Part shown: piece after piece, positions 19,401 through 38,765 of the stretch | Layout of the letters: each line of letters begins with the position of its first letter | Position numbering within the stretch: position 1 is the first letter of the stretch | From: Tetrahymena elliotti 4EA | Taxonomy: Eukaryota > Ciliophora > Oligohymenophorea > Hymenostomatida > Tetrahymenidae | DNA: 64,000 nt | Reading direction: 5' to 3' | NCBI GenBank assembly: GCA_000231825.2 | Contig: JH720340.1 | Span: 517,354 to 581,353, forward strand | Notes under the pieces: generated by a model | What the model saw: the letters and a program-made list of their open reading frames with translations, nothing else | What the model was told of the DNA's origin: nothing | Database searches by the model: none | Made by a program: the position numbers and the translations under genes

Positions 19401-22400
19401 TTAGAAAAGAATCAAATTAAAATGTAGTAAGAACTTGATGAGAAGAAGAAAGCTGAAGAATAAAGATTGCTAATAGAAGCTGAAGATAAAAAAAAGTAAT
19501 AAGAAGCTGAGGAGAAAAGGAAGTAGTAGGAAGCTGAAGAGAAAAAAAAATAGTAAGATGCTGAAGAGAAGAGAAAGCTACAAGAAGCTGAAGAAAAGAA
19601 AAAATAACAGGAAGCTGAAGAAAAAAGAAAATAGTAAGAAGCTTTAGAAAAGAAAAAGTAATAAGAAGATGAGGAGAAGAGAAAAAAGTAGGAAGATGAA
19701 GAGAAGAAAAAACAATAAGAAGCTGAAGAAAAGAAAAAGTAATAGGAAGCTGAAGAGAAGAAAAAGTAATAGGAAGCTGAAGAGAAAAGAAAATAATAGG
19801 AGGCTGAAGAACTTAAGCTCAAGCAACAAGCTGAAGAAAAAAAGAAGCTATAGGAAGCAGAAGAGAGAAAAAAGTAATAAGAAGCTGAGGAGAAAAAGAA
19901 GTAGCTTGAGATGGAAGAGAAGAAAAAGAAATAAGATGAAGAAGATTTAATTATGAAATAACAAAATGAAGAATAACAAAAAATTTTGGATGCTTAGAAT
20001 AAAAAGAAACAGGAAGAAGAAATGAAAAAAAATTAAGATAACTAAGATGAAAAAAATAAGAAAAAGGAACAACAATAGTCTTCTGATTCACATGGTGAAA
20101 TTGTTGCTGTTGAATTAAATTAAAATGAAAAAGTTAATGGAGAGCATAGCTCAAATAATTAATAAAAAGCACCAACTAACACTCAATAAAATGACAGCTA
20201 AAAGTAACTAGAGATAAATAATTAAGATACTAATAATAAGTCTAATGATAATTAAGTTGTTTCCTCACAAAGTGCTTAATCAAAAGAAGGTTCAAAGAGT
20301 GTTTCTACTAACTAGACTCCTAAGTTTTAAGAAGTCAGCTAAAAGGGGGATAATTAAGAAAATCAAAAAAGTAAAGATGGTCTTACAATTAATAAAAACT
20401 AAATAAAAGAAGTAAATAGTGAAGAAGAAAAATCTCCTTAGAAATAAAAATAAGATAATAAAAATAATTCTAATTAAGAGCTAACTGAAAAAGATAATCA
20501 ATAAAATGATAATAATATCAATAAAAAGCAAGGAGCACATGCAGAGGCTTCATCAAATAAATAAAATAATGTAGCAGCAGTGGTAGATGATGTCAATAAG
20601 AGTGGGTAAATTGAAAATAAAAAATCTTCATCTGACAATAAAATCAGTAAAGAAAACCTACAACAATAAAAATCTGAAAAAAGTATCAAGTCAATAGATA
20701 AAAATATTTAGGACAATAAAACCAGTAAAGAAAGCCTACAGTAATAAAAATCTGAAAAAAGTATCAAATCGATTGATAAAAGTATTTAGGAGAGAAAATC
20801 TTCTAAATCAGAATTAAGTACCAAATAAGGTGCTTCTGCAACAGCAGTAGTAGGTGCTTAGCCAACTCTTTCTAATGCAGAAGTAGAGAGCTAGCAATCT
20901 TAGAAGTAAATTGAAATTTAAAAAATTGAATAAAGTAAAACCTCACCACCTCCTCCACCAATCGAAAATGAAAATGAAGAAGAAAATGATGTTGTTGATA
21001 AAAGTGAATCAAATAAAAATATAGAAAAAAAAAGGAAGTAAATACTTAGAAACCACATTAGTATTGATTCAAATTACAATAAATCTATGAATGATAAAAC
21101 TCCTAGAAGAAATTCTCACTCAGACTTAAACCGCTCAGGTTATTCTGAAAAATCTCAAAAAGAAATAATGAACTTACAAAAGTTAAAAGAGTCATTCATT
21201 TCAAAGGAGGAGAAATAAAAGAGCAATAACAAAATGTCTATGGAAGAAATAGAAAATAACAAAGAATATGATGAGAAAAATGAGGTCCATGAAGTGAAAG
21301 ACGGAGATGAAACTATTAATCCTAAAGATCAATCTAAGAACTCAGAATTTTTTGTTTTAAATAATGAAAAATAAGGAGATTCATTAGTTAAAAAATAATC
21401 TTTAAATGGTTCTTAAACTCCAACAAAAAAGAAAAAGAAAGGCAAAGATACTCTTTTGCCTGCTGATTTTGACTCATGGACTGAAGAGAAATGCACATAA
21501 ATGATCAAAGAAAATCCTAATAATTATTTAGCCCACTACAGACTTGCTCATATTTGTATGCTCAAAGAACCTGATGTTGATATTGAAGGAACAAAGTAAA
21601 ATCTCAAAAAAGTCTAAGAACTTAATCCTGAATTTAAGGTTGAAAAGGTATTTTAAAAAAACAGTTTTTTATGTTTTATTCATTTTTTAACAAAAAATTA
21701 TTAAAATAAATAGATTAACATAACACTTGGAGAAATCTTTGAAATGTAAAAGAACTACGAGTAAGCTCTTGAGCATTACAAACAATTATTACCTGTTGCT
21801 TAAGATAAGCAAACTTGCTTGTTAAAAATTGCACGTTGTCATTAAAAGCTAAAGTCATATGAGCAATCATAAAAGAAGTATTCTGAAGCAATTAAAGTTA
21901 ATACAAAGAATTATCTTCCATATTTGAAATTGGGATGGATGCAAGTGAAGCTATCAAATATCAAGCACTAAGAAGCCCTTGAAAAGAATAAATAATTAGA
22001 TAGTCCAACAAAAACTGATATATAAAATATCCTTAAACAGGGTATTGATAACTTGTAAAAAGCTCATTCTCTTGAACCAAATAATGTTGAAATTAATATT
22101 AAGCTAGGAGAGGTAAATAAATTTTTTTAAAAGTTATTAATAATATGTAAATATGATTAAATAGGCTTATTTAATGAATGAGGAAGACAATGAAGGAGTT
22201 GATGAAGCAATTAGCTATCTCACTAACGCTCTTAATTTAGATGATAAAAACTATGACTGCCTAATTGGATTAGGAAAAGCTTATGAAAGAAAGGGTGATT
22301 TACAAAAAGCAATACAATTTTCACAATTAGCTATTGATCTCCCAAATCCAAACCCAAATTTAAATTCGATATTCTTCTTGGGAATGCTTTATTTACAAAA

Positions 22401-23800: not shown

Positions 23801-24989
23801 AAATCCTTATCTAACAACTATCTCAAGGAATAACCAAAAAATATTATATATAAAAATTAAACTATTTATTCTAAAATATTAAACTATTCTTTAATAATGC
23901 TATTGTCAAGCAAATATATTTATCTATCTATCCATCCACATCAGAATTCTAATTATTTCTAGAATTTCTTTTTATATCATATCGACCCTAAAAATACAAA
24001 TCCTTCTACTGATTCAAATATGTGAAATGTCTAAAGTCGAGAAATTAAACTATCTTTTCTATGTTTTATTGAGTCAATTGGAAAACTAAACCTTCAATTT
24101 AACTTTAAATTAATCATTTTAATGTTATTCTAAAAAATTCTAAGAGATAAATGTTTTAAATAACATCATAAGTCATTTTTCATTAAAATAAAATTTTTAG
24201 GAAGTAATTTAATAATTCAGAAATTAAAAAAAGCTTAACATTGTTTAAATATTATTTTTTGCATTTTAATACACCTATTATATACTAAAACATCATAGTA
24301 GTTAATACAGAATATTCTTTTTATTTCTAATATCATTTTAAAATAATTAAATAAAAATTCAATTATGTAAACACAGATTTCCATAACTTATTTATCAACA
24401 CAATTTAATAAAATTTTACAATTGAACTCTTTAATTAAATTTTCGAATTTGCTATCTATTTTGCATTAGTATTTTTAATAACAAGTTATAAGTTAAGTGT
24501 TTATATAAATTCTATTTATTTTAAAATTATTTAGATTTAATATTATTCAACTATCTTTAAATTTTAAAGTATGAATAAATTAGACTAGTTTTTATTGAAA
24601 ACCATCCCAATAAGTTTTTTAATTCTGCTAGCTTGTTTACACCTATGCATGTATTTTGCTTGTCAGAAAAATATAAAAGAATAAATTAATAACATCAGCA
24701 AAGAATTTTTTTTTTTAGAGAGTAATTTATTGTCTTATGACTTGCTTCTTTTCCAATTTCGTTTATTTAATTGTTGTAAGATTAGTATAAATTAATCTTT
24801 TTTACTTTATTTCATCATTAATAAATAAAGCTAATTAAAGATTTCTAACAAATAAAACCCAAGAAGGAAAGAAAGAAAACAAGCAGTCTATCTATCTATC
24901 AAAATATCAGTAATAAGCAATATTTACTAAACCATAAATTTTATATGCTTTATTTTAAGTAACTTCATTTTATTTTATTATATAAGATC
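23801..24989. other. AT-rich spacer
   Basis: About 1.2 kb between two plus-strand genes. It contains short simple-sequence patches (tatctatctatccatcc near 23920, ctatctatctatc near 24888) and no open frame of note. Confidence 0.6.
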
Positions 24990-27900
24990 ATGTAAACTTC
25001 TAAGAGAACCTCCAATTCTATATGTCAACCTTAGTCCAAGGATAACGTTTTAAATTTCCTCTGGCTTGATAATACTTCTGATAATAGTATTGTAATTGAA
25101 AAAATATGTGAAAGAAATTTGTGCTCTACTGAAGAAGCTCAAGTCTAGCTTAAGGAATATCATAAATTCTTGTACTGCTTAGGTAAGGAATACAGACTTA
25201 ATGAGCTCCTTTAGGATTAAATGCTCTTATTCCCTTCAGCTATTGTAAGTATTATTTGGTTATTTTTGAATAAAAAAATTTAAAAGTTAGCATTGGTATA
25301 TATATAAATCATATATATTTACCACAAAATGATAATTTTAATATCATTATTTTACTAATAAGGGTAATTAAGAAAATCTAAATTTTTTGATTTTCATGCT
25401 CTTAAATATAGTACTAAAATAAATATAAATCATTCTTTGTTATTACTTATTTAGGTAAGCAGAATATGGAGAATGCATTAACTTTTCACTATTGAATATC
25501 CATCTTTGTGCAGAGATTTGGGATTCAACTTCATCAGCTTTAATCCAGAAAAGATTTGCTTCTGGTCTTAGACAGAAAATTAAATCAACAAATTGAAATC
25601 AAGTTATGAGAAAACTTTAGAGCTATTAAAAAAAGAATTCAAGGATGAATTGAATGAAGAAATTTGGCCAAGCAATTTCAATGATATGGTTAAATAACAT
25701 TTGCTCTCATTCCATATTAACTTAACAACTTACAAATCTATTGAAAATAAAATCAATGACTTGAATGGAGCCATCAATTTTTCTGAAATGTCTATTTCTG
25801 ATATTAAAAACAAAGTTATTCCTGAAATAAGAAAAGACCTCCACCAATTTAAGGAAAGCAAATTTGAACTCATTAATCCTGAAACTTAAGACAAGTCTAC
25901 CAAAGAAATTTATTCTAAAATGAATAGTTTAATTTTCCCCTAAGAAATGGTTTCTCACATTCAAAATGTAAAACAATTTATTTCAAAAATTATTTTATTT
26001 AAAAGTATTAAATAATTTTTACTTTTCATATAAAATCCTAAGAAGAAATGGTAAAGAATGTTAAAACAAATAAATTAATTATAATTTATATTTGATTTTC
26101 TATTTTAATTATTAGAATTCTTGTTGGAATTTATTTTTAAAATTGTAAAAATTAGGAATACCTTTTAACTCCTGAGACTACTGAATATCTTATTATGGAA
26201 TACAAGAAATTCTTCATGATTTTCTTAGTTAATAATTCATTCTCTTAAGTTCCTTCTGCTTTTGTAGACGAAGTATGGCACACTCACATCAACTTTGCTA
26301 AAATCTATGCTCACTCTTGCAAAGTTTTAGTTGGTGGTTTTATCAATCACATTCCTGCAACTAATCAGAAGGAAAATGAATAAGAAATCATGAAGGAGGA
26401 ATTCAATCAAACTATGAACCTCTATCAAAAATTATTTGGTGCTGTCAATGAAGAATATTGGTAATTAAAGGGAGAATTTAGAGATGACTAATAAAATTTC
26501 TTCTGGGTTGATTTATATTCCTTGAACAAAAAATCTTAGGCTGAAGCCTTAAGTATATTTTATTTTGAAAAAACTAATTTTAATTAATTTGTTTTAAAAA
26601 AAGACAACCTTAATGTTAAAGCATAAGAAAATACACAATTAGATGACTCTATTTCAACTCAAAATGCCTCTGTTAACTAAGATGGTAATTTATTTTATGA
26701 ATCAATTGAAAATCTGCTCTTTATTTATATTTCTAAAATTTTTAAATAAACAGTTGAAAACTCTTGCAACGGATGTGATGGTAGCTGCAATGCTGTTGAA
26801 AATTTATCCATTTTCGCTGATAGTAAATAATTTAAATATTTATTGAAATATAATATTTAATACTCTGTTTATTATTAGCCAAATAAAATTCTTGCACTGG
26901 TTGTGATGGTGACTGTTTTACTTAAAACATCTTAGTTGCCTCAAATAAAAGTAATTTTTTGGTTCTATTTTTCATTTATTTTATTTTTTTTCCTTTTAAA
27001 AAAGCTGAAAAGAAATCTTGCAATGGATGTGATGGAAGCTGCAATATGAAGAAGGCTTCTTGCAACGGTTGTGATGGTAGCTGCAATATGAAATCTGATA
27101 ACAAAGGTAATATATATTTTTTTTTAATTTTATTTTGATAAATATTTTATTAAGCTTAAACTAAATCTTGTAATGGTTGTGATGGTAGCTGCAACATGAA
27201 AACTGCTTAAACTAAATCATGCAATGGATGTGATGGTAGCTGTAACATGAAGCAAGCTGAAAACAAAAGTAACTTTATTTATTTTATAAAAATTTCTATT
27301 AATAATTTTACTTTAGAATCTTGTAATGGATGTGATGGAAGCTGTAATATGAAGTAAGCTAATAGTGATGGTAATTTATTTAATTTTAAGAATAATATGC
27401 TCATATACTTTCTTTTAGCCCAAACTAAATCATGTAATGGATGTGATGGCAGCTGCAATATGAAGAAGGCTGAAAATAAAAGTACTTTTTATGGTTTTTA
27501 AACAAAATGAAAAAAATTTTATTAATAAATTAAGCTAAATCTTGTAATGGTTGTGATGGTAGCTGCAATATGAAGTAAGCTTCTTGTAACGGTTGTGATG
27601 GTAGTTGCAATATGAAAAAATAAGCTGAAAACAAAAGTAACTTTTTTTATTTTATCTTAATTTGTATGAATAATTATAATTTAGAATCTTGTAATGGATG
27701 TGATGGAAGCTGTAATATGAAGAAAGCTGATAGTGATGGTAATTTCTTTAATTTTAAGAATAATATTCTCATGAATTTATTTTAGCCCAAACTAAATCTT
27801 GCAATGGTTGTGATGGTAACTGTAATATGAAAACTGCTCAAACAAAATCATGTAATGGATGTGATGGTAGTTGCAATATGAAAAAAGATTTAACAAAATC

Positions 27901-29773
27901 ATGCAAAGGATGTGATGGTAGCTGCAACATGATGAAACAAGCTGAAAGTAAAAGTAACCTTTTTTTATTTTATATTAATTTCTACTAATAATTTTTGATA
28001 GAATCTTGTAACGGTTGTGATGGTAGCTGCAATATGAAGGCAACTAAGGATGATGGTAATTTATTTAATTATAATTATAGTATTCTCATTTCCTTTCTTT
28101 TAGCCGCCATAACTAAATCTTGTAATGGTTGTGACGGTAACTGTAATATGAAAACTGCTCAAACAAAATCTTGCAATGGATGTGATGGTAGCTGCAACAT
28201 GAAATCAGCTGATAATAAAGGTAGATTTTTTTAATTTAAAAATATTTTTAAAAATAATTGTTAATCAAGCTTAAAAGAAATCTTGCAATGGATGTGATGG
28301 AAGTTGTAATATGAAGAAGGCTTAAAATAAGAGTAACTTTTTGAAATTTTAAGAAAATGTGGTAAACTAAATATTTTTATTTAGCTTAAACTAAATCTTG
28401 CAGTGGATGTGATGGAAACTGCAATATGAAGTAAGCCTCTTGCAATGGATGTGATGGAAGCTGTAACATGAAAAAAGAAAAAAGTAAATTACAACTTATT
28501 TTGAAGAAATAATTTAATAAACTACTAATTAAGCCTAAGCAAAATCATGCAATGGTTGTGATGGTAGCTGCAACATGAAGTAAGCTTCTTGCAATAGTTG
28601 TGATGGAAGCTGCAATATGAAGAAAGCTTAAAAGAAGAGTAAATTTTATAATATTTTAAGAAAAAATTTATAATTTAACTTTTTATTTCAGCTGAAACTA
28701 AATCTTGCAATGGATGTGATGGCAACTGCAACATGAAGTAAGTTTCTTGTAATGGATGTGATGGAAGTTGCAATATGAAGAAAGAAAAGAGTAAATTAAA
28801 ATTTATTTTGAAGAAATATCTTAATCAACTATTAATTAAGCTTAAGCAAAATCATGCAACGGTTGTGATGGCAGCTGCAACATGAAAAAATCTTCTTGTA
28901 ATGATTGTGATGGAAGCTGTAATATGAAGAAGGATTAAAAGAAGAGTAAATTTAACTATTATTAAGGAATTATTTATTAAATTTTATTGTTAAGCTGAAA
29001 CAAAATCTTGCAACGGATGCGATGGTAACTGTAACATGAAGTAGGCTTCTTGCAATGGATGTGATGGTAGCTGCAATATGAAAAAGGCTGCTAATAAAGG
29101 TAAATTTTATAATTAATTTCTATATATTCTTAAATTTTTTTCTATTAAAAGGAATTAAAAATTCTTGTGATGGTTGTGATGGAAGTTGCAATTCTAAATA
29201 AGCTGAAAAAAAGAATATGAGTAAAATAAATTTAGAATTAAAAAGTATCAAATTTTAATGATTTTTATCATAGAATCATGGTCTATTGATTGCTTAATCT
29301 AAGAAGGTAATAAGAAGAAGAACTAAATTCATTCAAACAAGATGAAAATCTAATAGAAATTAAAAATGATCTGTAAATTTTATAAAATTTGAATCTCAAA
29401 AATTTTTTAATTCTTTTAAAATAGAATTTTGTGGAGATTGCTTCTTAATCAGTGAAAAAGCCTTAAATAGTAGAAAAATAATATTGTTAATTTTATATTA
29501 AATATTTTTAATTTATAAAGTTTCTAAGTAGAATCTTGCAAAGATTGCCTAATGTGCTATCAAGCAAAGTAAAATATTTTTACCCTGATAAAATAATACT
29601 AAAATTTAATTAATTTTATTCTTAGATGTCCAAGAAGAACAAGAAGATTCTTAAAAGATGAGAAGTAAATTCAATAAAAAATAACAAATTGTGTATTTAT
29701 AGTTATTTTATTATAAAATAAAGCTGAAATCCTTGAAATGGTATCAGGAATGAACAAAGTTCTTGTCTGTTGA
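24990..29773 (+). CDS. GRDP/DUF1399-like protein with a CNGCDGSCNMK repeat tail
   Basis: Exon 1 (24990-25244) and exon 2 (25455-25967) join in phase 0; exon 3 starts at 26156. These encode a domain resembling plant and bacterial glycine-rich-domain proteins (GRDP, DUF1399). The hallmark PSAFVDEVWHTHINFAKIY lies at about 26255-26310, followed by C..LVGGFINHIP. An earlier related but degenerate copy, FPSAI-VSRIWRMHQLF, spans the exon 1/2 junction. From about 26755 the protein becomes a tail of about 29 units of SCNGCDGSCNMK (C-x2-C-x3-C), carried one to three per exon on many small exons with phase-1 introns. Three decayed Cys units follow, then a final exon ending MVSGMNKVLVC with TGA at 29771. 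GRDPs in other organisms also have low-complexity Gly/Cys tails. Biochemical function is unknown; a metal- or redox-related role of the Cys tail is inference. No signal peptide is visible, so it is probably cytosolic. Confidence 0.8.
26755..29215 (+). repeat. Exon-borne array of ~29 SCNGCDGSCNMK units
   Basis: The core (tcttgcaatggatgtgatgg and synonyms) recurs at about 26762, 26888, 27015, 27059, 27167, 27218, 27320, 27430, 27541, 27584, 27687, 27800, 27851, 27901, 28004, 28120, 28170, 28282, 28398, 28440, 28546, 28590, 28705, 28747, 28854, 28894, 29010, 29050 and 29163. Third positions vary freely (tgt/tgc, aat/aac) while the three cysteines and the second Asp-Gly are constant. That indicates selection on protein, not DNA. 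Substitutions occur mainly at the first Asn and Gly (CTGCDG, CKGCDG, CSGCDG, CNSCDG, CNDCDG, CDGCDG). Introns of about 45-60 nt interrupt the array, all in phase 1. Confidence 0.95.
29230..29600 (+). repeat. Degenerate terminal Cys units
   Basis: After the last good repeat, three further small exons keep the register but not the consensus. They are SWSIDCLIQEG (about 29277), NFCGDCFLISEKA (about 29430) and ESCKDCLMCYQAK (about 29533). Each follows an intron ending in AG with the same phase, so they look like decayed or diverged copies at the array's edge. Confidence 0.55.
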
Positions 29774-30484: not shown

Positions 30485-33400
30485 TCAGAATTCATCATCT
30501 GATTCTTCTTAGAAAATAGTGTTGGAGCGACCCTTAAATTAGTGCTATGATTAAAATATTTAGCTTTTCAAATAAGGCTATCTAGACTCATAAATAGAAA
30601 ATTTTTAACTATTTCTAGGGATATTTTAAGAAACTTAAGTGGTCTTTTTTTTATTTTTAACTTAGCTATTTAAAATCAAATTAGCTATTTTAGATATTTA
30701 ATTTGGGTGGGAAGATCTAGAGTTTGCTGGAGTAGTAACATGGAAAGAAGTAACATTTTCAAACCCTCTTTTTTTAGTATCTCTGTAATAAATATGGTAT
30801 CTTCTATCACGTTTAATGAAAGCATTTGGCTTATATTTGGCTAACCTTTCCAAGACAGCTTAACAATTAAAGTCCACAAAATAGGATTTGAAGTTCTTCA
30901 TTCTATCTGTATTCAATGAAGGGAATTCAAAAATCATTTCCTTCCTAGTAATAGATTTAAAAGTATTATTTACAGATGTCATTTTTTTATCCTTTGAATT
31001 AATTTATTGTAATTAGTCATAAGCTTCCATATTTTATTGATTTCCATCTTCAAAGTTTATCAATCCCCCTTGCTCTAAATTCTACAAAATTGTATTTTAA
31101 ATTTGTTGTAATAAAAGATTTTTTTAAAGGGAACGACTTTGCTGACGCTATATTCCTATATTTTAGTAAACTTCATTTATTTTTTTCAATATCTTTTAAT
31201 TTGAAGGTGTGTTTTCTGTTGTAAAACTCTTTTACTTACTTAACATTGGAAATTTTTTCTTTTATTTATGGATGTACTCTTAATTTAAAGATGATTAGTT
31301 GCTAATATTCTTTTCATCAGAAGATATTGATTTATCAAAACTATCTCCCATTGCAGCTGCAATATCTTAAATTAATACTTTATTTTACTAAGGTGGTTTG
31401 TCAATAAGTTTTGTTTGATTTGGTGAGTCTACTTCAGGTTGATTTTAATATGATATAGATGACTTGCTTTGTTATCTACGTCCTTACATTTATCTTTGCT
31501 ATTTAGAGAGTAGTTTTTAATCAACTTTTATGTTAAGTTGAGCATTATTTAATAGCGAGTTTGTTTTATTGTGTGAAGGTGAAATCATATTTTTTACTTC
31601 TAAATCTTACTTTTAAGTATTCTTATCATCAAAATCTTCTTACTAGCTTTAATCATAATCATAATTATACTCCTATAACCTTATTGGAATAAATTTATTT
31701 TTTTACAACTAAGTACTGTTTCCTAAAGGATTTTCATTATCATCTTCGAAAATGACATTCTCTCTGGTAAGGCTTCCTCTTATTTTAGATTAGAAAGATG
31801 AAAAGAAATTTTAAGCCTATTATAAATTAGGATCATTCTATTATTCCAAAAAACTCTACCTTTAATTACTACTTTATGTGTTATTCAATTAAAGATTTTG
31901 CTATGTTTGTTGCTTTTAAATTTAATTATTTCCTTGAATGATATTTTAAATGTTATAATTAAAAATATTTTGTTAAGGTGCACGAAGAGGAGATGGTGGT
32001 ATGTATGTATCTTAATCCACTATTTATGTCTGTAAAGTTTATAATTATCTAAGGGAAAGTTTCTTTAAATTGTTACGAATATCTTTAATGTGATTAGAAG
32101 AGGGATTAAATTACTTTTGCTAAGAAGGAGTATTATTATTAGAATTACTGTTATTATTGAAATGAAAATTTAAGTTAGTCTGTATTTATAAGTTATTTGT
32201 TTATCCAGCTATAGCTTAGCTTTGATTCTAAATTGCTGGTTCAATTTTCTGTTAAGCATAAATTATTTCTTTTATTTTGTTTAGGCACTTATATTTTTAG
32301 ACTCTTCTCCAAACATCTTTATTTCTTTCATACTAGAAACCTTCTTTAAAATTTTACCTCAAAATAACTACTTCTTTGTCAGGCTAATAGTGAATTTTGT
32401 TGCACTTCTAGGTTATGTGGCCATAACGATCACACGAGTAGCATTTTATTTATAGAGAATTTAAATTATCATTATTCACAATCTCGTCATGAATTTAGCA
32501 ATAAATTTCATAATCAGATGGAAATTCTTTTAAAAGTTTTATAAAATCTTTCTTTTTGATTGAAAGCACGGAGCAAGGGCCCAAAGACCTAGCAGAGGCA
32601 CACCTAGGCTTCTCTGTAAAAAATGAAAACTCTCCAAATAATTCACCTTTTTTAAGTTCTTTGATAGGTTTAATAGTTAATTCCTCCATAGCATATTTAA
32701 AACATTTTGTATAAAGCTAAATGCTTCCTTTTTCAACTATATAAAAGGCCGTCTCTGATTATGATTGCTACAAAGTCTAGACATAACAGTAGTCTTCTGG
32801 AGTATTCTAAAATTAAACATTTTATAACTGCTGATTCTATTATAAATTTTAGCCAATATTCTAATTGGTAAAAGATTGTTCACTGATGTAATTATTTAAG
32901 TAAGCTTATTAAGATTATTGATTATTTTGTCCGACCCCAGAAAATCTAAATTAATTGTTGCCATTATTTAAATTATTTTGATTTGGTGAACTTAAATTAT
33001 TCTAATAGTTAAAAGGTTACTATAAATATTGTTAGACCTGACTTCCACTTAACTTTTTATTATGGTAAGGTAATTAAAGTAAATTTTATTATGCTGTAAG
33101 GTTTTAGTTAATATTAATTAAAGGAAAATTTAATTAATTAGGACTATTATTGCATGCTAAACCAATACTGTTTATCTAGTTTTATGTGTTTTGCTGTTAT
33201 TAATTACCAAGGTTTTAGTTAAAAATGTAGGGTAATTGAGTAGATTAAGTACCTATAAAATTTTACTATTATTAAGGATATAATAGCTAATTAGATTAGT
33301 ACTAATTTTACTAAATATTTTGAAAAGGACCATTATTAGTATATGTATTTGAGTTATTAGACATTTATTAAGCTGGCTACTATTGCATAAGCATTTGTTA

Positions 33401-35998
33401 TTGATATTGAGCTTACAAGTATAATTAAGGCAAGATATTATTCTATTGATTTTAAATTAAATACTATCCATTAATAATTGGATTATTAGTTACATAGTAA
33501 TCGTTTTCTTCAAATATAATTTCATTGCTTAAATATGTTTCTTTTTACATTTAAAGAGCTAATTTACTCAAAAACTTTCTTGAAAAATTATTTATAAGGA
33601 ATGGCACCTACTTAATTAGTTATATATTAGCAGAAATAGTTATTTTATCTCTTATGTTAGGTCCTAATTTGTCAAGTACTTCTTTTTCCTCTTTTGTACT
33701 TAACTCAGCTTCTGCACGATGTTTGTACTCCATATATTTAATAACCTCAATTTACAAATTTTTTTTAATACTTAAATTATTCAAATATCTACTAATCAAA
33801 TTAATATCTTTTTAAAATTCTGTATTCTTTTTATTGATTTCTGAAACAATATAACCAATTTAGTTAAATGAATAAGCAAATACACCACCTGCTAAGATCA
33901 TTGTAAAGGCACAAAATGTGGCTTCATAATTATTAGAAGCAGCTATATCTCCATATCCTGTTGTAGTCATTGTTGTAACACTCCAATAAAAGGAGTATAT
34001 GTATTTTGAAAAAACTGTGCTATTTACCAAAATAAAATCTTCATTTTTCTAAGTTTACTATTCTGAACTGTAATGCTCTATCCATGTTACATGAGTTAGA
34101 TTATATACATCCTCTATATATGCTAATCCCAAAAATAAACAAGCAAAAAGATGCCCAACAAAAAGAACTAAAAAACTCAGTTAAAGTAATTTGATATATG
34201 GTATAAAAACTTGATTTTAAAGTTAGCATAACTCTAGATATTTGGCAAGAATAGACCGCAAAGTAATATATTTACAAACCACAAAAACATTAACTATTCT
34301 CCAAGCACTTTAGAACTATGCCATAGAATCAATTACAGGTAGCAAGGCTAGCGAATCCCAAATAAATCCTTTCATAAAGTAATTTACCATAACCTGCCTT
34401 CTATCCATAATACAAATACCTCTATCATAGAATCCAATATTAAAATTTAAAATTATGTGTATAATAAAAATAGCAAAGCAAAGGGTGGGAAATATTTTCC
34501 AAAAAAAATCATCATATTCCATTTCCATATGAGTGTATGTAGCAAACTCAATTGGTTAAATGAGTAAATTAAGAATAATTATCGTAGAGTGGATAATATC
34601 CCAAACATATAAAATTGAAGAGGAGGGATTGATGATTGGTACATAAATCAAGGTTTAAAGCAACCATCTCATCAAGAAAGATTCTTCTTACTTTTTTCTT
34701 GATTGAAGACTATATGAAGATTTGTAAAGAGTGTCTCTAGAAGCAGAAATAGATGTGCCAAATAACTTTCTTTTTCTATTATGATATAAATTTAGATCAA
34801 AATGAGTTGAGTCATCTATCATTTCAATTTAGCGAGATGTAACTAAGTTTGCCTTCCAAACTGTAGAAATTCTCTTTAAGTTTGAAATAAACCTCCATGA
34901 ATTTAAAACTAAATTAAAAATTATATTATCACTTTCTTCAGTTAAGGTTCTAGTAAAAAAATTTTTAATTTTAGCTGTTCCTGCCCTTAAATTTAAAAAT
35001 GTTTTTCTCTTTTATTAACGTGAAGTCTAAGCATTAGCTTATTCACTACCACCTCTTCTTTCTCCATCATTCACATTGCTTTGTTATGTTTATTCTTTAT
35101 TTTATTAAACTAGACTTTTTTAATATTCATTTATTGAAGTAGTCATTTTATTAGATACATTAAAATTCTTTTGAGTAGTATGCTCTATTGTAGTTTTTAT
35201 TTCCCTTAACAATTTCTTCCCCTTTGAGCTAGCTTTGTTACTCAGCTCAAAATTATTATGTGGTTATTAATCTATTACCGTCAAAGATTTATTATTTTAT
35301 CTCTAACCTTTATTTATTTTAAAAGGGCTGTTTAAGTTAATATTCTTAAAAGAATTAGTAGAATATTCTTAATTTGGAATATTATTACTCAACCCAATAT
35401 CAACCATTTCTATAGTCATTGGTTAATCAGATTTTTTCGTATTTGATTTAGTTTTGGAATTTTTTTATTATTTCTATTCCATTTCAATTCTTTCCAAGCT
35501 CTCTAAATTGCTATGAAACTCTATATTATTGTCTGATTATTACTAAAAACTACTATTCTATTCAGAAATCCTCTTCTATTTATTATCATTTTTTTTATCT
35601 TAGCTTCTAAAAACTTCTTATTTATTTTCCAAGTTAAGTTCCTTTACAGGTATCTTAGGTTATTGTTAATAGGCTAACATTTCGGAATTTATTTGTATAA
35701 TTTAACTCATTTCATCATCTTAATTATGATTTTCTTACTCATCTAAAACTATATCCTTTCTTTATAATTTATTTAATTTTTTTGAAGGAGAAAGCCTATC
35801 ATCATTTTTTGTTTCTAATACATCACTTTCCTCTGACTTAAAATTTAAAATATTTAAATTGCTATCAATAAGCTCTTTATCTTCTCTTCTTTCATTCTCT
35901 TCTGTAATTAAATTGCCCCATCCACGATCTGAGTTTGTCCCCTCACCTTTTTATGGTATATCATAATGCTATTGAAGATAATTATCTTTACGATTCAT
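30485..35998 (-). CDS. Cyclic-nucleotide-binding-domain K+ channel with CCHC zinc knuckle (1837 aa)
   Basis: A single uninterrupted ciliate-code frame of 1838 codons including TGA. Residues 1-~440 are polar and Gln/Asn-rich (cytosolic). Six hydrophobic segments follow from about residue 450 (YVPIINPSSSILYVWDII, then FWKIFPTLCFAIFIIHIIL, and others). S4 (around AWRIVNVFVVCKYITLRSIL, ~560-585) has few positive charges, so voltage sensing may be weak. The selectivity filter TTTGYGDI lies at about 678-685, typical of K+ channels. A CNBD starts near residue 825 (NEIIFEENDYY), is broken by ~240 Gln/Asn-rich residues, and resumes at ~1080 (ETAFYIVEKGSIQLY). It includes the phosphate-binding cassette GELFGEFSFFTEKPRCASA (~1118-1140). 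A CCHC knuckle, CYSCDRYGHITQKC, is at 1186-1199, followed by a ~640-residue Gln/Asn/Ser-rich tail. Family: EAG/CNG-type plasma- or ciliary-membrane channels. Being intronless at 5.5 kb is notable beside its intron-rich neighbours. Confidence 0.93.
32775..33500 (-). other. Gln/Asn-rich insertion inside the CNBD
   Basis: This part of the channel gene encodes roughly residues 832-1075. It is dominated by Gln (mostly TAA/TAG), Asn, Tyr, Ser and Leu, with no TGA and no intron boundary consistent with removal. It separates the first CNBD beta-strand motif (NEIIFEENDYY) from the remainder (ETAFYIVEKG onward). It reads as an in-frame low-complexity expansion in a surface loop. Confidence 0.8.
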
Positions 35999-38765
35999 AT
36001 CCTATTATTTGAAAATAAAATTTAGATGTTTCAACCTTTATATATTTATGGCAATTAAGTCTTTCTTTCCAAATGATAACTAAACTTTTCTTATTATGTT
36101 GTTGTTTTTTAATTATTTGTTTACTTCGAAAAAAATACAGTAATAACTAATTTAATCATGCAAAAATTAATTTTTGATTATTTTTAATTAACCATTGCAT
36201 ATTTTACAATAAGTACTATTCAATTATAAAAATTTACTTTACATATTTAGTATTGATTATATTATAATTGTTTTTTAAAGTCATAATTAACTAGTGCAGT
36301 GCTATATACAGTTTTTTTTACAACAATATATTACAGAATACTTTGTAAAATTTAATAATAAAAATCATATTTGATTTTATTTTGATAAATTTAGAGACTT
36401 CTCCTTTCTCTTAATTTTTAAAAACTTCTTTGTAGCTCTTTCTTTATTAAATCTTTCATGTTATGATAAAATTTAATGAAAATATTCAATTAATAAATTA
36501 TCTAACCTAATTTTTATAATGTAAATCGCGTTATTTTAGTAATAAGACTCTATACTTTGTTTGTTCTTTTTTTATTTATGAATAGTCATATTTATTTATT
36601 AGTCAATTTAGAAAAAATCTTTAATCATAAATTTTCGTTGGTCATTACTGAATGATTTTTATTTGATAGTCTTTACTTTTAACACAAATTTTAGCATAAT
36701 TAAAATATAAATTGTATAGATTTAGAAATTAATATTTTTTGTTACTTTAAATTTTTTATGGATGAAATTATATTATTCTTTTTAAACTCAAATTAGAAAT
36801 AAAAAGTATTAAAATTAAATTTAACTTTAAATTTACAATTTAATTTTCTTTGGATTTATTGTTTTATTTTTGAAATTAATTTTGAAATATTAATTTAAAA
36901 TTAATTAACATTTAATGAATAATGATGTAAAATATTTTAAAAACATTTTCATGTTAATAATCTACCATAAAGTCAGTTGGTTTTTTTATTATTTTTGGAA
37001 TTTAAAAATTCATCCTTAGAAAAGAATTAAACAAATTTTCTTTTATTTATTAAATACTTTTATTTGAATGAAATAGTTTTCTAATTTTATCAAGAAAGTC
37101 AATCTATTTATTTACATTAGAATATCTCAAACATTAAAAATACCCTCAAAAAATTTATGATCAAAAAGACTAAGAATCATTAGTAATTAGTTCCTTTTTT
37201 GTAAATCAAACTAAATCAAAGCCTTTTATTTATTTAATAAAAATCAAAATAAATTTTATAAAACATATTTAGAAGTCTTTAAAACATACAGAATGGATTT
37301 CACAAGATATTTTTAATTTAAAGTAAATAATTCTTTAAATAAAGAGATCAATCACTAATCATTTTATAAGAGTTATATAAAATATTTTTATTCAAAACAT
37401 TATTTTAGAAAGCTTTAATAAATAATTTAAATCTTATTGTAATCATTTTATGATTTAGTTTAATTATCATTTTTCTTTTTTTAGATTAAATCTATGAATT
37501 ATAAAAGAAGATTCTGATTATAATTTCAATTTTTTATTATCAAGAATGATAAGTTTAATTAGGTAATTCAACTAAAAATATATATTCTATTATTTCTAAA
37601 AATTAATTTTTTTTTAAATAATTGATTTAATAATTTAATTTTTTTTTGTTTATGAATATGAATAGCTCATAACTTTTGATTTTTTAATATCAAATTAAAA
37701 CTAAAAGCAATAATTTGTATTTTGCTGATGATTTATCTATTCAAAAAAATTTTATGAGTTGGTAAAATCTCTGCATAAAAATAAAAAAAATTTAACAACA
37801 AAAAAGCTTAGTTAAATTAAATACATTAGAAACTTGTAACCAACTTCTTTGTTTTAAAAATATTAGATATCAAAATTGATTACAGAGCATTAAAACTTTA
37901 CTGTTTTTTTTTATTTATCTTTAACTGGTATTGTGGTTTTTCTAAAAAATGTTTTACTTTTTTAAATTATTAAGTTATTTCTTAATATAACAACAGAATT
38001 CAATCATGAGCTTGCTTGTAAAAATTGCCTGAATATCATTATAGTTTTTTTGAATTACCTACTTATTAGTTATTTTTGAAAATTTGAAGTTAGATATTTT
38101 TATTTGGTTGAAATTTTTTAATAATTATAAAGATTTTTAATGAAAGGCATTTAAATATGCGATTGTTGATAATAGAATAAAATTTGAGCTTAATAGCTTA
38201 TAATGGGTTAGATTTAAGGATATGATGACATAGAACTAGTAATTATAGGTATATATGATTGTCTTTTAATTTTTTGTTGCTAAACTTTAATAATGCTCCG
38301 CGTTATTTATATTCAAAACTTGATCAGATATACATAAATTTAATTATGAAGTAATATATTAATGTAAGAAAGATATTCATTAAGAATTTAACTTAAATGA
38401 CGATGTTTTGCAACAGTGATTCAATCTAGAAATAGTATAGGATTTAAAATTTTTATTCAAAGAACGATTTGCACGTCTTTAGAGATTCTAAATTTTGTAA
38501 TCCTTATATTGTAAAAAACAATATTTATTTCTTATTGATTTTATATTACGTAATCTTTTTCATGTGAGGTATTTTAAATCCATTCTATATACAGATTCAT
38601 CTTACAGTCATCAAATCAATGATTAAGATTTTATCAAAAGATTTGCGTGATATTAAATACATTTTTGCTCTATCAGTCATAAAGTTTTTTAGAATAATTA
38701 AAAATAAGTAAAAATAACTACAACAACTTTTAACTTAAAAAAACTTTCAAATCTAGTTAATAAAA
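35999..38765. other. Long AT-rich intergenic region between divergent genes
   Basis: About 2.8 kb. It holds the upstream regions of the minus-strand channel gene and the plus-strand acyl-CoA oxidase gene. I looked for tRNA- and snRNA-like folds around 38150-38520, where the sequence is slightly less A/T-rich, and could not support any. No frame of note. Confidence 0.6.

Follow-up and report, generated by a model that had tools for sequence, protein, structure and literature searches.

Here we describe a gene of the ciliate Tetrahymena elliotti 4EA that appears to join a GRDP-like region to a long array of cysteine-rich repeats. The gene lies in a 64,000-nucleotide stretch of contig JH720340.1 (positions 517,354 to 581,353 of the forward strand); this whole stretch is the window, and all coordinates for the gene count from its first letter. 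Sequence comparisons link GRDP domains to cysteine-rich C-termini across kingdoms, and the domain and the tail probably work together, perhaps by binding metals or by making modified peptides.

The array consists of 29 units of the form C-x2-C-D-G-x-C on the + strand, at 26765-29189 with introns included. In a motif scan, the 29 matches to C..CD.[SNDG]C start at 26765 to 29166, and the same scan found no matches on the - strand. The original prediction, which was made from the DNA letters alone, had reported about 29 cysteine-rich units with about 87 thiols, and both numbers hold: the predicted protein has 99 cysteines, of which 87 are inside units. It had also described a 12-residue unit. The C-x2-C-x3-C spacing and the DG are indeed present in every unit, but there is no fixed 12-mer; rather, each unit has an eight-residue core and the linkers vary from 6 to 16 residues. 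Cys1, Cys4, Asp5, Gly6, and Cys8 of the core are invariant in 29 of 29 units. The location that it gave (26755..29215) fits the array, but the gene extends further, from 24990 to 29773. The tail of 527 amino acids is 16.5% cysteine and rich in lysine, with two aromatic residues and neither histidine nor arginine.

Within the T. elliotti genome (90 Mb in 134 contigs, translated with code 6, the ciliate code), the DNA form of the motif has 25 exact matches, and among the matches listed, all are in the GRDP gene. A reversed control pattern had no matches in the 90 Mb. When a 68-residue piece of the tail was compared to the same genome in a protein search, 12 of 12 matches were in the GRDP gene. 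Two protein searches identified just one GRDP gene; another candidate relative (L010; 26% identity, E = 0.83) was taken to be a chance match.

The 29 units have 26 distinct 24-nt cores, which vary at synonymous positions. We computed the ratio of nonsynonymous to synonymous differences (pN/pS) from uncorrected differences among units that are not independent of each other: it was 0.06 for the core over all 29 units and 0.048 for the 26 internal units (0.017-0.085 across 200 bootstraps). The proposal that the peptide is under selection while third positions vary is thus upheld, and the low ratio supports purifying selection on the core of the repeat peptide. The array itself probably grew by duplication of blocks of exon plus intron, because the 307-368-bp repeats reported by Tandem Repeats Finder (84-85% match) span exons and introns.

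We inferred the gene model from splice signals and from a homologous protein of Tetrahymena utriculariae (hypothetical protein ABPG72_013264, 1037 amino acids, labelled PF27765), which we will refer to as P0002. The model has 26 exons at 24990-29773 on the + strand and encodes 1063 amino acids in the ciliate code. Splice sites were chosen from sequence signals, not from cDNA, and P0002 settled the last of them; since P0002 is an annotated hypothetical protein, it supports the model but does not prove it. The 29 units fit 18 exons of 54-168 bp, with GT-AG introns of 47-56 nt, and there are three non-repeat exons upstream of these and five downstream. Every repeat exon has a length that is a multiple of 3 and the introns are in phase 1, so the copy number could change without damage to the reading frame. 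In the following list, the entries for the repeat exons rest on the motif scan and the inferred splice sites:

24990..25244, + strand: exon 1, with the start codon (ATG at 24990; another in-frame ATG at 24945) and the beginning of degenerate GRDP copy 1; aligns with P0002
25455..25967, + strand: exon 2, remainder of degenerate GRDP copy 1, from the comparison of copy 1 with copy 2
26156..26684, + strand: exon 3, GRDP copy 2, from homology to the bacterial protein P0003 and signature residues
26754..26822, + strand: exon 4, unit 1, flank diverged
26879..26950, + strand: exon 5, unit 2, diverged (C-T-G-C-D-G-D-C)
27005..27106, + strand: exon 6, units 3-4
27155..27268, + strand: exon 7, units 5-6
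27317..27370, + strand: exon 8, unit 7
27419..27481, + strand: exon 9, unit 8
27535..27636, + strand: exon 10, units 9-10
27685..27738, + strand: exon 11, unit 11
27786..27953, + strand: exon 12, units 12-14
28002..28055, + strand: exon 13, unit 15
28104..28220, + strand: exon 14, units 16-17
28270..28332, + strand: exon 15, unit 18
28385..28483, + strand: exon 16, units 19-20
28534..28638, + strand: exon 17, units 21-22; alternative in-phase acceptor possible at 28540
28692..28790, + strand: exon 18, units 23-24
28841..28945, + strand: exon 19, units 25-26; alternative in-phase acceptor possible at 28847
28995..29099, + strand: exon 20, units 27-28
29152..29220, + strand: exon 21, unit 29 (C-D-G-C-D-G-S-C), flank diverged
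29274..29372, + strand: exon 22, conserved C-terminal region, from the P0002 alignment
29425..29469, + strand: exon 23, conserved C-terminal region with FCGDCF, from the P0002 alignment
29521..29568, + strand: exon 24, acceptor picked by the match to P0002
29626..29664, + strand: exon 25, from the gene model and comparison with P0002
29724..29773, + strand: exon 26, ending in a TGA stop, from the gene model and comparison with P0002

That the repeats are fused to a GRDP/DUF1399-like domain, as had been suggested, agrees with both the splice model and the matching architecture of P0002. The likeness to P0002 runs from end to end, with the GRDP part, the cysteine array, and a conserved C-terminus in the same order: 356 of 436 aligned positions are identical in the GRDP part (82%) and 61 of 96 in the C-terminus (64%). 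P0002 has 21 units by a loose pattern, and 18 of these fit C-x-G-C-[DN]-G-x-C. However, position 7 of its core is threonine in 18 of the 21 units, and its linkers (NANGTG..TQNKKLKN) do not resemble those of the T. elliotti gene (NMKKAENK..). The units at the edges of the array have diverged in both species. Because the core was kept while the linkers are dissimilar, the two arrays are best read as having expanded or been homogenized separately, with the core retained.

GRDP copy 2, which is encoded by exon 3, is similar to a bacterial protein that belongs to PF27765 (P0003; 40% identity over 15% of the 624-amino-acid query, E = 4e-8). Copy 2 contains the signature D-x2-W-H-x-H, Y, C, H-x-P (P289, D294, W297, H298, H300, Y307, C311, H321, and P323). 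These residues, as well as S290, V296, and T325, are each present in at least 118 of the 120 PF27765 homologs listed. Across 45 aligned domains, the aspartate is present in 44, the tryptophan in 45, H298 in 44, H300 in 37, the tyrosine in 45, the cysteine in 41, H321 in 44, and the proline in 44. The sole exception for the aspartate, the first histidine, and the last histidine is copy 1 of the ciliate protein (24990-25967), which is degenerate: it has W-R-M-H where W-H-x-H is expected and has lost all three residues. Copies 1 and 2 are 28% identical (E = 1e-10).

The tail leads to a GRDP domain even if the domain is left out of the query. We built a profile from the two ciliate tails, with GRDP sequence excluded, and compared it to 5.8 billion proteins, of which 7981 candidates were scored. 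The search reached proteins of about 180-580 amino acids, so P0002 was outside its range, and one protein had E <= 1e-5. This protein, P0125, carries a GRDP domain. It is a metagenome protein of 290 amino acids from a 944-bp contig, with seven intact C-N-G-C-N-G-[TS]-C units. Like the ciliate protein, it combines a GRDP-like domain with an array of related cysteine units, but it has one GRDP copy, asparagine replaces aspartate in the core, and its best alignment to P0002 is at 29% identity. The AlphaFold model of P0125 has a helical GRDP domain, with a mean predicted local distance difference test score (pLDDT) of 75-96 per ten residues up to residue 120, and its best viral match (E = 4e-7) bears the name GRDP-like; the AlphaFold model of exon 3 is poor (pLDDT 48.7). 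P0125 (23.1 bits) and a GRDP protein from Halomonas (25.0 bits) pass the cutoff of 22.7 bits for the Pfam family PF07173. Neither the N-terminal part nor the full ciliate protein matched any family at E <= 5 in a Pfam set that included PF07173 but lacked PF27765, and a scan of the ciliate genome with PF07173 gave no matches, but no control genome gave a signal either. Since the ciliate protein has homology to labelled members but does not score against PF07173, we describe it as GRDP-like by homology and not as a scoring member of PF07173.

The bacterial proteins in the P0003 group share the D-W-H-x-H-Y-C-H-P residues with the ciliate protein, and they also end in a cysteine tail with x2 and x3 spacings. 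They differ in that their tail is about 20 residues long and rich in Gly and Ser, and in that they have about 250 central residues of their own (with membrane character, according to the source names) that are missing from the ciliate protein. We found 793 homologs of P0003; among the 120 listed, 116 have at least three cysteines in the last 50 residues, and at least two of the other four (P0031 and P0032) are incomplete proteins. GRDP matches were found in 16 of 296 genomes from the Bacteroidota (the phylum of Rufibacter).

Across a more diverse set of GRDP proteins, 32 of 42 have at least three cysteines in the last 70 residues, as compared to 27 of 263 neighboring open reading frames (ORFs), some of which are spurious (P = 1e-18, Fisher's test; the GRDP records are not phylogenetically independent). 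T. utriculariae is not in this set. P0125, retrieved through its tail, is counted, and leaving it out gives 31 of 41. After thinning, 22 of 31 have a cysteine tail (5e-13). The P0003 group and the loci from genomes were found with full-length queries that contain the tail, and the 22 proteins from plasmids or phages were found with the domain only; these were chosen across genera from 79 plasmid records (60 listed) and 3 phage records. Of these 22, 13 have a cysteine tail (2e-7, Fisher's test), or 12 of 20 after thinning (5e-7). In the counts, two of the five cysteines of L044 are inside the domain, and L050, L051, L058, and L070 each have one outside the tail proper; all of these proteins keep three. 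L046 was left out of the tally, as no GRDP ORF was found there. Two of four further viral loci have a cysteine tail (a fifth, L075, is on the same contig as L047), and viral scans with the query A4 and with the phage protein L059 found no relative.

The tails are quite varied (CGSSCGGCGG, YCAR repeats, AWCSL repeats, SMCDG repeats, HSCGGHSC, CKKASCTRTQCKPQKC), and their common feature is cysteine. Four tails (L059, L066, L067, and L076) mix histidine and cysteine. Tandem repeats with a single cysteine occur in two proteins from Cupriavidus, with YCAR four times and YCAL once, and in one from Variovorax, with AWCSL three times:

L053:2465-3103, L055:2465-3073, and L070:2890-3535: Cupriavidus and Variovorax GRDP proteins with single-cysteine tandem repeats

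Judging from these sequences, the GRDP domain and the cysteine tail form a widespread partnership, one that many bacterial proteins display. The original prediction had overlooked this pairing, and the view that the combination is unprecedented is not supported. Besides the bacteria, the available part of a paper on Arabidopsis GRDP2 describes DUF1399, an RNP motif, and a C-terminal glycine-rich domain with interspersed cysteines (PMC4299439). That protein has roles in plant development and stress, and the same part of the paper describes no C-x2-C-D-G-x-C array. The narrower statement, that no protein with this repeat had been described, fares better: strings of the core gave only a chance match in the open-access papers searched (to control theory), and searches of those papers with names and motif strings gave no account of a C-x2-C-D-G-x-C repeat or of a GRDP-peptide system.

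We compared the protein to several known families. Metallothioneins of the same genus also have modular cysteine-rich repeats, with CC and CCC clusters in subfamily 7a and CKCXXCKC in subfamily 7b, as given in the available part of the source (PMC1808422). In contrast, the 527-residue tail contains neither CC nor CxC, so the expected difference from these metallothioneins is real by those family rules. Given that CC or CCC, CKCXXCKC, and the MTCM1 promoter motif were not found, we rejected membership in family 7 by motif. Upstream of the gene, there are TGANTCA sites at 24010 and 24070, of 25 in the whole window; by sequence, these two are too few to be a metal-response cluster. The motif of DnaJ-type zinc fingers is C-x2-C-x-G-x-G; the ciliate protein has no CxxCxGxG, only 29 C-x2-C-x-G stretches, and no Pfam family, so this candidate was rejected as well. 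Membership in TIGR04222 was rejected because the full protein has no match to it in NCBIfam, and P0002 likewise has none. Leucine-rich repeat (LRR) genes of Tetrahymena are similar in having arrays of phase-symmetric exons that were enlarged by duplication, but as described in the part of that study available (PMC6564038), they have 90-bp exons and phase 2 introns. The exons of 54-168 bp in phase 1, with cysteine units and in a single gene, do not fit the LRR array.

What might the tail do? The reading that we prefer, and to which we would give somewhat less than an even chance, is that the tail binds a soft metal by its many thiolates, with the GRDP domain as a partner. We favor this because of the density of cysteines, the scarcity of aromatic residues, the knuckle-like core, and the mixture of histidine and cysteine in the tails of some relatives. 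The C-x-x-C-x-G core resembles a metal-binding knuckle. In this view, function would reside in the tail, which would act as a ligand with many thiolates and hold Zn, Cu(I), or Cd in its C-x-x-C-x-G knuckles. The task of the GRDP domain, in which D-x2-W-H-x-H..Y..C..H is conserved, would be to load the tail, to sense it, or to prepare it, as a partner dedicated to it. The array would have been enlarged and remade by phase-symmetric duplication of exon-plus-intron blocks, so that copy number would set capacity.

Several observations weigh against this reading. The ciliate tail lacks histidine, unlike the histidine-bearing tails of relatives. The MTCM1 motif of subfamily 7a does not occur in the window with up to 3 mismatches. 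The full protein matches no family in Pfam, and NCBIfam gave just one chance match (13.7 bits, with a cutoff of 1200); a 141-residue piece of the tail had no match among sequences in the Protein Data Bank (PDB). Repeats with one cysteine and no histidine (YCAR and AWCSL) and peptides with a single cysteine (GGGHCQGGGSW) do not suit a simple metal store. Also, a cysteine-rich tail in cis is missing from 10 of 42 GRDP proteins (9 of 22 when only those retrieved by the domain are counted) and from 2 of the 4 further viral proteins.

A less likely explanation, although the strongest of the alternatives, is that GRDP handles or modifies peptides and that the cysteine repeats are the cores of its substrate, which would be in cis in the ciliate and in trans in some bacteria, as in ribosomally synthesized and post-translationally modified peptides. 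This would account for several gene neighborhoods. Plasmids from Halomonas (L062:6815-8796) and Pseudomonas (L061:5790-7882) both encode a small cysteine peptide, then a stand-alone GRDP, and then a membrane protein. The peptides are annotated, with 42 and 44 amino acids and a start that resembles a ribosome site; their leaders are unlike each other, but they share the ending GGGHCQGGG[SG]W. The membrane protein has a match to MatE in Halomonas (E = 5e-4, below the curated cutoff) and no Pfam match in Pseudomonas. This row of genes looks like an undescribed peptide operon, and the GRDP copy on the Pseudomonas plasmid may be damaged, as its match falls in two pieces. At L044:5614-7169, a GRDP ORF of 143 amino acids is followed about 21 bp later by a distinct ORF of 367 amino acids that ends in GSSCSSCSSCSSD; by its sequence, this arrangement is a split form of the fusion. 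A small E. coli plasmid (L064:4339-7540, - strand) has, in a single row, a GRDP with the cysteine-rich ending CGCSGKGCGAGCSCNSR, an ABC exporter, and a JmjC_2/cupin gene, and in Azospirillum ramasamyi, GRDP is near a methyltransferase and TauD. (A GRDP query at E <= 1e-3 matched at least 24 plasmid records from Escherichia.) The label of exporter for the neighbors rests on one weak match to MatE, one match to ABC, and inspection by eye. The single-cysteine tandem repeats of Cupriavidus and Variovorax would also suit substrate cores, and the available part of one study proposes that TIGR04222 proteins with cysteine tails are substrates of MNIO enzymes (PMC12452194).

However, a convincing small cysteine peptide is adjacent to only 3 of 10 tail-less GRDPs (L043 was not among the loci inspected). 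In Stanieria, a 43-residue peptide with two FCFL motifs is downstream of GRDP. No convincing small cysteine peptide was found near the tail-less GRDPs of Macrococcoides, Maritalea, Azospirillum argentinense, or Deinococcus, and in a Streptomyces plasmid and the phage Kromp, the small ORF next to the tail-less GRDP has no cysteine. (On the Maritalea plasmid, at L063:5773-12201, the tail-less GRDP is directly followed by a multi-pass membrane protein, and an annotated SagB/ThcOx-type dehydrogenase lies about 4.4 kb further.) MNIO (PF05114) had no match in the ciliate genome, in a search that gave a signal in 2 of 14 controls. It is also absent from 12 of the 17 GRDP-bearing bacterial genomes searched (G250 was not searched), and in the remaining five, it is on another contig or 0.4 Mb from GRDP. 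Nor was MNIO among the families listed for neighboring ORFs (25 of 97; 87 of 126 ORFs were scanned). We therefore rejected modification by MNIO in the ciliate; GRDP itself, as a putative enzyme, or another enzyme would have to act. Also, the linkers show no common cleavage site. In its broadest form, which we consider slightly more doubtful again, this explanation would place GRDP-like domains, which occur in bacteria, phages, plants, and ciliates, at the center of a peptide system that has yet to be described. They would bind and modify cysteine core peptides, present either as C-terminal tandem repeats or as separate small peptides that a transporter encoded nearby exports, and the ciliate protein would be its own substrate, with 29 cores of three cysteines each. 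As for a role in defense, PADLOC found no match for the five proteins submitted to it.

We consider it rather improbable that the cysteines act in redox buffering, or that disulfides between them support a solenoid-like structural tail. By eye (no predictor was run), the N-terminus has no signal peptide, so a reducing cytosol is the likely location. Foldseek found no match in the PDB at E <= 0.001. In the AlphaFold model of P0125, the cysteine units are stacked as paired strands, with moderate confidence, which may be an artifact of repeat stacking; AlphaFold 2 tends to stack tandem repeats. Structural matches of P0125 (VIA) that cover the repeat part were set aside as probable repeat stacking.

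Finally, LRR genes of Tetrahymena show extensive expansion of tandem exons, according to the part of that study available (PMC6564038), but we think it very improbable that repeat expansion produced the tail as a neutral side effect and that its cysteines have no function, given a core pN/pS of about 0.05 over 26 distinct cores, a core that is retained in two species whose linkers differ, and a similar core on a GRDP in P0125.

GRDP/DUF1399 is widely distributed but has no assigned function; for its plant members, phenotypes in development and under stress are reported in the available parts of two papers (PMC4299439 and PMC8585784). The company of cysteine peptides, in cis and sometimes in trans, hints at its target. 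With its 29 near-identical sites and their 87 thiols, the repeat array of the ciliate gene would be a convenient large substrate for probing how GRDP acts.

Two other features of the window are worth recording. At 19471-19936, a 27-bp tandem repeat of 17 copies encodes a charged stretch of the EEKKKQQEA type in an upstream gene on the + strand; further on, this gene is presumably similar to tetratricopeptide repeats (by eye). At 30485-36244 on the - strand, in convergent orientation to the GRDP gene, an open frame of 1919 amino acids (code 6) contains TTGYGD, which we take to be the filter of a K+ channel.

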